Shown here: one piece after another, positions 4,308 through 59,979 of the stretch | Numbering within the stretch: the stretch's first letter is position 1 | Layout: each line of letters begins with the position of its first letter | Position numbers and translations under genes: made by a program | Assembly (NCBI GenBank): GCA_949738465.1 | Contig: CATJBQ010000250.1 | Coordinates: forward strand, 1 to 64,000 | Length of the DNA: 64,000 nt | Source: an uncultured Lachnospiraceae bacterium | GTDB taxonomy: Bacteria > Bacillota > Clostridia > Lachnospirales > Lachnospiraceae | Reading direction: 5' to 3' | The notes under the pieces: model-generated | What the model saw: only the letters and a program-made list of their open reading frames with translations | The model's database searches: none | Told to the model about the DNA's origin: nothing

Positions 4308-5150
4308 CTACAGGATAATCCGGTTATCAATGAGGCGCGTGGTACCGATATACACCGCAATGGCGATCAGCACGGCGCCCTCCACCTTCTGGATGGGCTG
4401 GATATTATCAAAGCTGACAATCTCCACATAATCGATCCGGGCCGCCGAACAGGTGTTCAGTTTTTCTGTGATGGCCGCCTTCACCTTCCCGGCATCGGTC
4501 TCGCCGCCCTCGATCAAGGCCATAGCCACTTCCAGGGACTGGTTTAAGATCACTGCCTGGGCCCGCTCCTCCGCCGACAGATAGGTGTTGCGGGAGCTTT
4601 TCGCCAATCCGTCCGCTTCCCGTACAATGGGACAGCCCACAATCTCGATATCAAAATCCAGGTCGATCACCATCCGCCGGATAATGGCAAGCTGCTGGGC
4701 GTCCTTCTGCCCAAAATAAGCCCGCTGGGCGGGAATGATATGGAACAGCTTGCTCACCACCGTCTGCACGCCCCGGAAATGTACCGGACGGCTGGCGCCG
4801 CACAGCTTCTCCGGCAGGGTGTGCATATCCACGTAACCGCAGAAATTGGGGCCGTACATCTCCTCCACCTCCGGGTGGAAAATCCAGTCCACGCCGGCTT
4901 CCTCACACAATCCCGCATCCCTCTCCAAATCTCTCGGATAGCTGTCATAATCCTCGCCGGGCCCGAACTGCATGGGGTTTACAAAAATACTGACCACCAC
5001 TTTATCGTTCTCTTTTCTGGCCCGCTCCATCAGGCTCTTATGGCCGTCGTGGAGATATCCCATGGTGGGAACCAGCGCCACCGAAAGGCCCTGGTTCTTC
5101 CACTCCTTCACCTGGTCTCTTGTCTCTTTGATACTTCCTGAAATCTTCAT
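4308..5150 (-). CDS. panC: Pantothenate synthetase
   Basis: VPTMGYLHDGHKSLMERAR...SIFVNPMQFGPGEDYDSYPR; clustered with panB and panD. Confidence 0.96.
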   Translation of the reverse strand: MKISGSIKETRDQVKEWKNQGLSVALVPTMGYLHDGHKSLMERARKENDKVVVSIFVNPMQFGPGEDYDSYPRDLERDAGLCEEAGVDWIFHPEVEEMYGPNFCGYVDMHTLPEKLCGASRPVHFRGVQTVVSKLFHIIPAQRAYFGQKDAQQLAIIRRMVIDLDFDIEIVGCPIVREADGLAKSSRNTYLSAEERAQAVILNQSLEVAMALIEGGETDAGKVKAAITEKLNTCSAARIDYVEIVSFDNIQPIQKVEGAVLIAIAVYIGTTRLIDNRIIL

Positions 5151-5171
5151 ATCCGTCTTCCTCCCCCGACT

Positions 5172-5999
5172 TTAGTACAATTTCTCCAGCACATCATCAC
5201 TGATGGCATACTCATGCTTCTTCTCCGGGAAGGAGCCGTCCTTCACCGCCGCGTCGTAGGCGGCAAAAGCCTCCCGCATGGTCTGGCCCACCTCGGCGAA
5301 GCGCCGCACAAATTTTGGCGTAAAGTCGGAAAACAACCCCAGCATATCCTGGTAAACCAGCACCTGTCCGTCGCAGACATTGCCGGCCCCGATCCCGATG
5401 GTGGGAATGGAAACCTCCTTCGTCACCATCTCCGCCAGTCTGGCCGGCACGCACTCTAAGACCACGGCAAAGGCCCCTGCCGCCTCCACTGCCTTCGCGT
5501 CCTCTAAAAGCTTCTTAGCCGCGCTCTCGGTCTTGCCCTGCACCTTAAAGCCGCCAAAGGCATTGATGGACTGGGGCGTCAGGCCGATATGGGCGCAGAC
5601 CGGAATACCCGCCGCCGTGATGGCCGCAATCTGGGGACAGACCTCCTTGCCGCCCTCCAGCTTCACCGCCGCCGCCCGGCCCTCCTTCATCAGCCGCCCG
5701 GCATTGATTAAAGCGTCCGTCACCGACACCTGATAGCTCATAAAAGGCATATCTACAATCAAAAGGGCATTTTTCACGCCCCGGGACACGGCTGCCCCGT
5801 GATGGATCATATCCTCCATGGTGACGGAAATGGTGTCCTCATAGCCCAGAATCACATTTCCCAGGGAGTCTCCCACCAGGATGGAGTTGACCCCGGACTC
5901 GTCGATGAGCTTTGCCGTGGAATAGTCGTAGGCCGTCAGCATGGACAGCTTCTCGCCCTTTTGCTTTGCTTCCTTAAATGTAGTTACTGTGTTTTTCAT
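5172..5999 (-). CDS. panB: 3-methyl-2-oxobutanoate hydroxymethyltransferase
   Basis: [48 protein letters not shown]. Confidence 0.96.
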
Positions 6000-55832: not shown

Positions 55833-58055
55833 TTACCGTTCCCGTATGGAGACATAATCTGTCACAAACAGGCTGTCACTGGCGCTAAAGCCGTCAAACA
55901 GCAGCCTCCGGTCGCTGACCTTCGGCGCTGTAATATCGTAATATACGGTGCACCAGGCTTCCCCAGAGAGCCCGTTCAGGTCATAGGCCACCGCCTTATA
56001 GCGGATGGCCCCCTCTTTTGGGTTCTCATAGGCCAGGGTACTTTCCGCGATCCCCGAAAGCCCGGTCTTAACCGCCACCTGGGTGCTTCCCTGGTAAATC
56101 TCCACCCGGTCCAGCCCCACGCCAAAGTCCCATGCATCGGCGGTCAGGCAGATCCTGCGGTTGGTCCAGATTCCGGCGCTGGCCGTCAAGGTTACCGTGG
56201 GCGCCGTTGTATCCTTCCAGAAGGCGTAGAGCACCGTATCCTCCTCCTGGTCCCAGGGCCGGTTCCCGGCCATATGCTCATTGTAATAGCAGGTTCCGTT
56301 TCCTCCGGGCTGGGTATAATAGCCCTGAAACTCCCAGCCGTCCCGCACCGGACCGTCCGCAAAGGGCATAGCCTCCCCATAGACCGCCGTCACACCGTCG
56401 CTGCCGCCATAGCCCCCCTCCTTCTGGAAGGTAATCCGGCACTGCCTGGCCCGCCAGTGGGCATACACCAGGCTGTCGCAGCGGAAAATATTCTTGTCCG
56501 CCACCTGGCGGTCCAGAAGGGAACCCTCCCGGTTCTCCATAAAGCTTCCCTCCGGATCTGTAACCATGGCCCCCATGCCGGAAATTCCGGTATAGTAGCC
56601 TAAAAACTCGTACCCGAAAAGTGCGGGAACCTCAATCTTCGAAATCTCCTGCTTCCCTGCCCGGTCGCCGCACCAGGCCTGCTCGTATTTTTCGTAAAAA
56701 ATATCCGCTCCGCCCTGGATCTGCTTATCCCCCTGATAGATGCCGGTTCCGCCGTCCTTCACCGTGCGTATCTGATACACCTGCGGTTCCCAGAGCGCAT
56801 AGAGGGTCACCACCCCCTGATCCACATCGGTGAGATTCCGAAGCAGCTTCTCATGTCCGTTTTCATACTCCCTGCCATAGCTGTCCCCGCTGCCGTCCGC
56901 CCTTGTGTTCCATGCCAGGAAGGTATACCCCTCCCGGGTATATGCCATCGCCAGCAGAGCCGTATCCACATCGTAGGTACATTGCTGGTCTCCCATCAGC
57001 CCCTGGCCCCCATTGGCATCGTAGCAGATGGTATAGGTATTGGGCTGCCAGGCGGCAGACATGGTCAACTGAAGGTTCTTTATGCCGGCCTCCGGATGGA
57101 TCTCCCTGGGAAGATAGGCCGTATGCGCATCAAAATACCGGTTATTATATGTCCACTGCCTGCCGGAAACCAGATGATACCCTGTCTTTTTCAAATTCGG
57201 TGAGCTGCTTAAGGACACATGGTCCGGCACGACCATGGTTTCCTGCTGCAGCAAGCGGATCCGTGTCTCCAGGGGATACTCCCCCCGGCAAAGGATATCC
57301 GCCCCCTGGCTGTCCTTCACCGTACGATACCCTTCCGCCGGAATGCCGCCGGCAGCGTTATAGCGGATCTGCATGGCATAGTTGTGGATATCCTTTCTGA
57401 TATCGATGTAGTTCAGGAAATCATGCCCCGCAAACACCCGCCTGAGCGTCTTGAGATCCCCGCTGTCCCGCAGATGATAAACCGCCCCCCACTCGTCCAG
57501 ACTTCCGTCCCCGCGCTCCGAAACACCACCGTTCAAAGTGCTTCCCGATCTGGTGGTCATGATACTGTCAACCGTTACCTCCACCAGCTCCGCCTGAAAA
57601 ATACTGTCGGCCACCGCGCTGTTTTTTGCCCGTGCCAGCCGGATCAGATCCTGGCAGGAAATCCGGTACAGGACATATTCAAATCCGCCTGCACGCACAT
57701 CGGAAATCTCCTGCATGGTCTGATCCCGCTTGACGGCCAGTTGCAGGCTGACACCGTTTCCGGTAATCTCAATGTCCTGTCCCACCTCGCGGTACTTAAG
57801 GCTGGAGCCGGAAGACGCCACCCTTCCCGCCGTGGCATAATAGATATCTCCGTTGTAAATCTCCATATGCTTCCGGTTGTCCACCGTCTCAAAAAATTCT
57901 CTGGCATTGGTATAGCTTCCCGCCGCCCGCACCCTGCCTGCCGGGACATGGGCCGCCCCCAGCACAGCCGCCCCTGCTGCGCCCAGAAGGGTTCCCATAA
58001 GCAGCAGCAAAAATCCCGGTCCCCTTCTCCTGTCCCCGCTACTTCGTTCTTTCAT
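55833..58055 (-). CDS. Secreted protein with about three InlB-B-type repeats and a C-terminal Ig-like region
   Basis: Signal-like GFLLLLMGTLLGAAGAAVLGAAHVPAGRVRAAG; YTICYDANGGQG...GYTFLAWNT...LYALW; TTAPTVTLTASAGIWTNRRICLTADAWDFGVGL. Confidence 0.85.
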   Translation of the reverse strand: MKERSSGDRRRGPGFLLLLMGTLLGAAGAAVLGAAHVPAGRVRAAGSYTNAREFFETVDNRKHMEIYNGDIYYATAGRVASSGSSLKYREVGQDIEITGNGVSLQLAVKRDQTMQEISDVRAGGFEYVLYRISCQDLIRLARAKNSAVADSIFQAELVEVTVDSIMTTRSGSTLNGGVSERGDGSLDEWGAVYHLRDSGDLKTLRRVFAGHDFLNYIDIRKDIHNYAMQIRYNAAGGIPAEGYRTVKDSQGADILCRGEYPLETRIRLLQQETMVVPDHVSLSSSPNLKKTGYHLVSGRQWTYNNRYFDAHTAYLPREIHPEAGIKNLQLTMSAAWQPNTYTICYDANGGQGLMGDQQCTYDVDTALLAMAYTREGYTFLAWNTRADGSGDSYGREYENGHEKLLRNLTDVDQGVVTLYALWEPQVYQIRTVKDGGTGIYQGDKQIQGGADIFYEKYEQAWCGDRAGKQEISKIEVPALFGYEFLGYYTGISGMGAMVTDPEGSFMENREGSLLDRQVADKNIFRCDSLVYAHWRARQCRITFQKEGGYGGSDGVTAVYGEAMPFADGPVRDGWEFQGYYTQPGGNGTCYYNEHMAGNRPWDQEEDTVLYAFWKDTTAPTVTLTASAGIWTNRRICLTADAWDFGVGLDRVEIYQGSTQVAVKTGLSGIAESTLAYENPKEGAIRYKAVAYDLNGLSGEAWCTVYYDITAPKVSDRRLLFDGFSASDSLFVTDYVSIRER

Positions 58056-58103: not shown

Positions 58104-59240
58104 TCATCCTTCCCGGGACGCCTGCTGCTTCCAGAGCAGCTCGCCCCAGTCGCTCTCCATCCCTTCTTCCACCGGCCGTATCTCTTTTGCCGTCACATAG
58201 ACGGCATATTGGTCCGCATCCATACTGATCCAGTCTCCGCTTCCCCCCACTGCCTCGCAGCCGATGGAGGCCAGATACGCCTGGATCAGTTGTGTCCCAT
58301 AGGATCCCTCCCCGCCGTGGACCATCACGATATAGCCTCCGTACCTGGGATCTTCAACTACCTGGTAATATCCGGCGTTGACAGCGGCAAGCTGCCCTTC
58401 CTCCAGGTGGGTATCATAGTAGTCGGGATCTGCCGCCGAGGGGCTCACCGGACCAGAGCCGCCATTTCCGGCCGCTTCTGCTGCGGGAGACTCTGTCCGG
58501 GAAGCCGTTTCCCCCACCGGGGAACTTTCCGGCTGTAAGGATGCCGTGTTTGCCGCAACAGAGCCAACGGCCAAAGTCCCGGCCGCTTCTCCCGCAGCCG
58601 TGCCCGCCGCCAGGGCAGCCTCCATTTCCCCGGGCTCCAGAACGATCCAGAGCTGCTCTAACCAGACGTTGTCATATATATCTGCCACCGCCAGCACCCC
58701 CCGGTAAATTCCCGGCTTTCCCGGAACCTTCTCCGTCCCCAGGCTTCTTAACTGTTCCTGGCTTAGGGGCGCAAGCATCAGGGCCTCCAGGCTCTCCCAG
58801 CCAGGATCCCCGTATTCCTCCAGCTCTGCCTCCCAGGCAAAACGGGTGAAAGATACCGTATAATCGCTGACGTCATAGACGGCTTCAATGAGCTCCTTAG
58901 GATCATATTCCGCCAGATTATCGGTAAAGACCACGCGCCCGGCCAGCTCCACCATGGGCGGCGTCCGGTCCGCCACATACACGGTAATGCCATAGCGCTT
59001 CCGGCCCACCAGGGCCTCCGCCGGATAAATCCCCGGCCGGTCTGCATCCACCCGGGAAATATCAAATACAATCTTCTCAAGCTCCCTTCCGGATGCCTCA
59101 AAAAAATCCTCTCCCATAAATTCCAGCTCCTGTCCTGCCTCCACCGTCACCTCATCCCGGATCTGACGGACGCCGCATCCGGCGCTAAACGCCAGAATCC
59201 CTAAAAGAACCGCCCCCAGGGCGCACTTCTGCTTCCACAT
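58104..59240 (-). CDS. Putative lipoprotein of the Tad-like operon; Ig-like and Ala/Ser/Glu linker regions
   Basis: MWKQKCALGAVLLGILAFSAGCG lipobox; two further in-frame RBS/ATG pairs upstream at 59273 and 59306. Confidence 0.75.
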   Translation of the reverse strand: MWKQKCALGAVLLGILAFSAGCGVRQIRDEVTVEAGQELEFMGEDFFEASGRELEKIVFDISRVDADRPGIYPAEALVGRKRYGITVYVADRTPPMVELAGRVVFTDNLAEYDPKELIEAVYDVSDYTVSFTRFAWEAELEEYGDPGWESLEALMLAPLSQEQLRSLGTEKVPGKPGIYRGVLAVADIYDNVWLEQLWIVLEPGEMEAALAAGTAAGEAAGTLAVGSVAANTASLQPESSPVGETASRTESPAAEAAGNGGSGPVSPSAADPDYYDTHLEEGQLAAVNAGYYQVVEDPRYGGYIVMVHGGEGSYGTQLIQAYLASIGCEAVGGSGDWISMDADQYAVYVTAKEIRPVEEGMESDWGELLWKQQASREG

Positions 59241-59395
59241 CTTCTTCTCCTTCCATGCCTGCTGCTTGCGCATCTTCTTCTCCTCCCGTGCCTGCTGCTT
59301 CCGCATCTTCTTCTTGCTTGCGCATCTTCTTCTCCTCCCGTGCCTGCTGCTTCCGCATCTTCTTCTCCTTCCGTGCCCGCTGCTACCGGAATCTG
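59238..59395. repeat. 33-bp tandem repeat array carrying iterated SD-ATG pairs at a gene junction
   Basis: Minus unit GCGGAAGCAGCAGGCACGGGAGGAGAAGAAGAT; ATGs at 59358, 59325, 59306, 59273, 59240 with spacings 33, 19, 33, 33. Confidence 0.85.
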
Positions 59396-59979
59396 GCCAC
59401 ATAGGTACAGTCCTCCGTCACTATTGTTCCTGCCAGCGACAGAAGTTCCTCTCCTCCCGCCTCCCGCCAGCCTGCAAATTCCTTTCCCTCTATCCCCGGT
59501 TTCCCGGGAATCCGTATGATGCTGCCCTTGCGCACATAATAGGATTTATAGCACTCGCCCTCCACCAGGTAGGTAATGCGGCAGTACTCCGGCTGCTCCT
59601 GGCTCCGGTACTGCTCTAAGATGGCCGTCCTGCGCCTGGAAACCGTCCCCATCCGGCCGATGGGGTGGCGGAATGCGCTCACCGCCTCCACCGACAAAAG
59701 CCCCCGCTCCACATCCACGTCCAGAATATGTACCGTCACCTGGGACCTGCTGGCGATCTGCACCGAAAACCGCTGCAGAAATTCCTCCACGAATTCCTCC
59801 GTGTCCTTCGTCTGCCCTGCCTCCAGCTCTTTCAGCCCCTGCAAGGCTTCCTCCATGGCAGTGGACAATGCCAGATCCAGCTCCGTCTGCCGGACGGACC
59901 TGCCGTGGAGCGTATAGGCGATCAGCACCAGCAGTCCCAGAAATACCGCCGCACTGATCCCGATTACCATATTTTTCAT
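59383..59979 (-). CDS. Pseudopilin/TadE-like membrane-anchored protein with a C-terminal InlB-B-like unit
   Basis: N-term single TM MKNMVIGISAAVFLGLLVLIAYTLHG; C-term IIRIPGKPGIEGKEFAGWREAGGEELLSLAGTIVTEDCTYVARFR. Confidence 0.6.
   Translation of the reverse strand: MKNMVIGISAAVFLGLLVLIAYTLHGRSVRQTELDLALSTAMEEALQGLKELEAGQTKDTEEFVEEFLQRFSVQIASRSQVTVHILDVDVERGLLSVEAVSAFRHPIGRMGTVSRRRTAILEQYRSQEQPEYCRITYLVEGECYKSYYVRKGSIIRIPGKPGIEGKEFAGWREAGGEELLSLAGTIVTEDCTYVARFR

Follow-up and report, generated by a model that had tools for sequence, protein, structure and literature searches.

A probably young tandem duplication that multiplied a ribosome binding site at the junction of a Tad-like operon gene and a lipoprotein gene

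Where a gene of a Tad-like operon meets the gene for a lipoprotein, a Shine-Dalgarno (SD) sequence and its ATG are repeated in a short array, which probably arose as a young, lineage-specific illegitimate tandem duplication (replication slippage) and for which no selected function is needed. The array lies in the window, that is, the whole 64,000-nucleotide stretch analysed here (positions 1 to 64,000 of contig CATJBQ010000250.1 from an uncultured Lachnospiraceae bacterium). Read on the minus strand from 59388 to 59238, it consists of units of 33, 33, 19, 33, and 33 bp (four 33-bp units and one truncated to 19 bp), each of which ends in AAGAAGATG. It opens on the CGG TAG that closes a 198-aa gene (final codon plus stop), as the original prediction had read from the sequence, and ends with ATG 59240 of the lipoprotein gene. 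The features referred to below are as follows.

59383..59979, minus strand: upstream gene of 198 aa in a T2SSE/Tad-like ATPase operon, whose last codons and stop open the array
59356..59388, minus strand: unit U0, CGGTAGCAGCGGGCACGGAAGGAGAAGAAGATG, the original junction with stop, SD, and ATG 59358 (now out of the lipoprotein frame)
59323..59355, minus strand: unit U1, 33 bp, with SD and ATG 59325, out of frame
59304..59322, minus strand: truncated 19-bp unit, with ATG 59306 in frame and no strong SD
59271..59303, minus strand: unit U2, identical in sequence to U1, with SD and ATG 59273, in frame
59238..59270, minus strand: unit U3, with SD and ATG 59240, in frame; this start yields a canonical lipoprotein signal peptide
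59315..59366, minus strand: first copy of an exact 52-bp tandem (identity run)
59263..59314, minus strand: second copy of the exact 52-bp tandem (identity run)
59185..59358, minus strand: 57-codon ORF, out of frame, opened by the first unit ATG and overlapping every in-frame lipoprotein start
58104..59240, minus strand: lipoprotein gene, 378 aa from 59240 (MWKQKCALGAVLLGILAFSAGC..., with a lipobox), Ig-like in its N-terminal part

The five unit ATGs (59358, 59325, 59306, 59273, and 59240) and their spacings of 33, 19, 33, and 33 bp are as originally predicted, and recomputation of the frames agreed that the last three lie in the lipoprotein frame and the first two do not. The accompanying claim that every unit holds GGAGG/AAGGAG about 8 nt before its ATG was borne out for four starts, 59358, 59325, 59273, and 59240, whose predicted anti-SD pairing is −12.0 to −12.4 kcal/mol (−12.2 for 59240), but not for 59306, which reaches only −2.2 kcal/mol. 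There are two further ATGs, 59256 out of frame and 59402 in frame within the upstream gene. ATG 59402 was considered as a start and set aside as probably incidental: it has SD-like pairing of −9.5 but falls in a conserved stretch of upstream-gene codons (CTYVA), and the same-genus relative L012 has no ATG there.

The two 52-bp copies (59366–59315 and 59314–59263) form an identity run of exactly 52 bases at an offset of 52, with zero divergence by TRF and an exact-run scan; the last event was therefore a 52-bp duplication. The older 33-bp units carry three to four differences between them, and the contrast with the undiverged 52-bp copies supports a young slippage event. The tandem-repeat background was 272 kb for this genome and about 590 kb together with relatives. 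The exact 52-bp tandem is not due to chance; no other exact tandem with a period of 30–199 bp was found in these 272 kb or in the 320 kb of relatives, and its head-to-tail copies are more alike than chance allows, as in tandem duplications of the VNTR type. The number of SD–ATG pairs is by itself less remarkable than this tandem, since shuffling the purine-rich array with its dinucleotides preserved gave at least four pairs in 85 of 2000 cases. Another contig of this genome (L109, positions 4560–5248) carries a 306-bp tandem repeat of 2.3 copies with 84% matches.

The 52-bp copy accounts for the present frames. When the second copy is removed on paper, what is left is three 33-bp units whose starts all share the lipoprotein frame; its presence takes the first two starts out of that frame. 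A 51-bp in-frame duplication, giving an 18-bp unit instead of 19 bp, would place all five unit ATGs in frame, and an assembly or sequencing error, either a spurious duplication or a single superfluous A within the 19-bp unit, was considered for this region. The assembly is a fragmented draft of 263 contigs (∼76% complete), and the similar stretches AAGGAGAAG and AAGCAGCAG lie 51 bp apart rather than 52. However, ordinary short reads can cover most of an array this short, and the adjacent operon genes are intact with no signs of indel errors. The intact state of these neighbouring genes makes a single-base mistake in the 19-bp unit unlikely, and we regard an artefact of either kind as very improbable.

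The 198-aa gene has homologues of 48–52% identity in same-genus loci and weak matches to DUF5411 and Flg_new in Pfam. Its operon contains a T2SSE ATPase (PF00437, E 2.3e-13) whose gene order is conserved in family loci, a combination characteristic of Tad/type II–IV secretion-like operons; for the remaining operon genes, Pfam returned no Tad family match. The lipoprotein ORF opens ATG TGG AAG CAG and has a GC content of 0.68/0.46/0.66 at the three codon positions, the second being low as in coding genes. Read by eye, the product from 59240 has the short basic n-region, hydrophobic stretch, and FSAGC lipobox Cys (MWKQKCALGAVLLGILAFSAGC) of a signal peptidase II-type lipoprotein. No family was found for it in Pfam, and the search for orthologues in 98 and 397 genomes returned none, only Ig-like partial homologues in other contexts. 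Directly downstream (window 55833–58055) is a 740-aa protein with Listeria-Bacteroides (Flg_new) repeats, whose same-genus counterparts are ∼35% identical.

The same site is organised differently in relatives. L013 and L014, the two same-genus relatives readable across it, have a tRNA-Ala (CGC) on the opposite strand (L013:12353–12567 and L014:3968–4134) where the window has the lipoprotein gene at 58104–59240, and the contig of a third, L012, stops inside what looks like the same tRNA. No tRNA gene was found in the window itself. Such an array was present at none of the 16 junctions compared, though in a few of these the position at which the 198-aa homologue ends is approximate. It occurs once in its own genome and in none of five other genomes of the genus, a distribution that also supports young slippage. 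Its sequence was not found in viral contigs, and in plasmids there was just one weak 5% match. In the family relative L048 (4136–4960), a 270-aa signal-anchored protein, which has no evident similarity to the lipoprotein and is possibly its functional counterpart, occupies the same slot, flanked by the 198-aa homologue and a 693-aa ORF.

These observations can be assembled into a tentative order of duplication events, deduced from the sequence. The first duplication would have copied 33 bp reaching from the upstream stop as far as the lipoprotein ATG, probably through mispairing of CGGTAGCAG, at the upstream stop, with TGGAAGCAG, in lipoprotein codons 2–4; the two share 7 of 9 bases and, with the extra units taken out, are separated by 33 bp. 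The new units would already have carried AAG for the stop TAG, with no separate stop mutation, so that each joins the lipoprotein in frame. Within their first 12 bases, positions 1, 4, 10, and 11 distinguish U0 from U4. The hybrid (slippage) model is supported because position 4 is T in U0 and A in all later units, as seen in U1, U3, and the lipoprotein codons. In same-genus relatives the 198-aa gene terminates in FQ-stop, with TTTCAGTAGCAG in one of them, and CGGTAGCAG is therefore the old end of that gene. Later, an exact duplication of 52 bp, comprising one unit and parts of its neighbours, would have shifted the first two starts away from the lipoprotein frame. The originally proposed duplication of a gene junction is supported by this reconstruction, in which the SD and ATG appear to have been taken along. 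The absence of exact microhomology at the 52-bp breakpoint counts against young slippage.

The 33-bp period, equal to 11 codons, keeps the frame through U1 and U3, which could also reflect selection on the N-terminus. The array would then act at the protein level: initiation at 59306 or 59273 would add a highly charged in-frame extension (RKQQAREEKKM repeats) that lengthens the cytoplasmic n-region, the SD-like GGAGGAG being a by-product of Glu-Glu codons. The Ig-like homologues in L005 and L008 likewise have strongly basic n-regions. However, 59306 lacks an SD, and the most recent duplication threw the two upstream starts out of frame, a change that selection for protein repeats would be expected to oppose. 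A protein-level role is unlikely. The signal peptide of the 59240 product, the strong SD of that start, and the weak local RNA folds around the array (RNA hairpin control) all support young slippage.

In the best reading of these features, the array would have a weak effect on translation or none. Start 59240 most likely accounts for the bulk of lipoprotein translation, and 59273 for some of it. Starts 59358 and 59325 probably lead into the overlapping frame and a peptide of up to 57 aa that stops at 59185, beyond the real starts; such initiation may reduce lipoprotein output or hold ribosomes nearby. Start 59240 retains its own SD and frame at any upstream copy number, and there is therefore no simple on/off frame switch but at most a tuning of translation. 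The slippage-tuned translation switch of the original prediction is at most conjectural: this constancy in all copy states argues against on/off switching, one of the five units lacks an SD, and the array is known from one genome.

It is formally possible that frame changes in 52-bp steps could modulate translation. Exact tandem repeats of about this size are expected to be unstable, and 52 is not a multiple of three (3 × 17 + 1); by computation over one to five copies of the block, the first start is in frame with one or four copies and not with two, three, or five. If the 52-bp block or 33-bp units were gained or lost, the strong stop-proximal start would move into or out of frame, and expression would alternate between a long form made at high level and a short form made at low level, as in a contingency-type modulator. 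A precedent for starts in two frames before a repeat is the Haemophilus influenzae contingency gene lic2A, whose CAAT tract follows start codons lying in two frames (PMC3116884, citing Dixon et al. 2007). We consider such a modulator quite unlikely here: 59240 keeps its SD and frame in all states and leaves no true OFF, the exact 52-bp copies number just two, and the array is absent from relatives. Still more doubtful is a translation rheostat in which each repeat unit is a complete ribosome binding site and start, and 52-bp gain or loss moves the strongest stop-proximal start in or out of the lipoprotein frame.

Compared with known systems, the array is at most a modulator and is not classed as a contingency locus. 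SSR contingency loci have short units (1–9 bp) in many copies, and the units here are 33 and 52 bp; copy number does alter the frame of a start by computation, but leaves 59240 unaffected. In H. influenzae, tetranucleotide tracts lie at or just after the start (PMC2651432). The likeness to lic2A lies in a cell-surface gene whose 5′ end offers alternative starts in two frames, with repeat number setting the in-frame start; the lic2A tract, however, has 7–33 tetranucleotide copies located after the starts, whereas the array has few copies of larger units with SD and ATG inside and is known from one genome. A literature search for tandemly repeated ribosome binding sites found nothing on point. 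The array resembles minisatellite or VNTR-type short tandem duplications, formed by slippage or illegitimate recombination, in its head-to-tail units, with one exact recent copy and older diverged ones. It differs from ordinary tandem duplications in spanning a stop/SD/start junction, so that the ribosome binding site was copied too. For now a curiosity of one draft genome, it offers a clear snapshot of slippage multiplying a ribosome binding site and creating overlapping starts in different frames; if its copy number is variable, frame-based phase variation would extend from short repeats to units with their own start signals.
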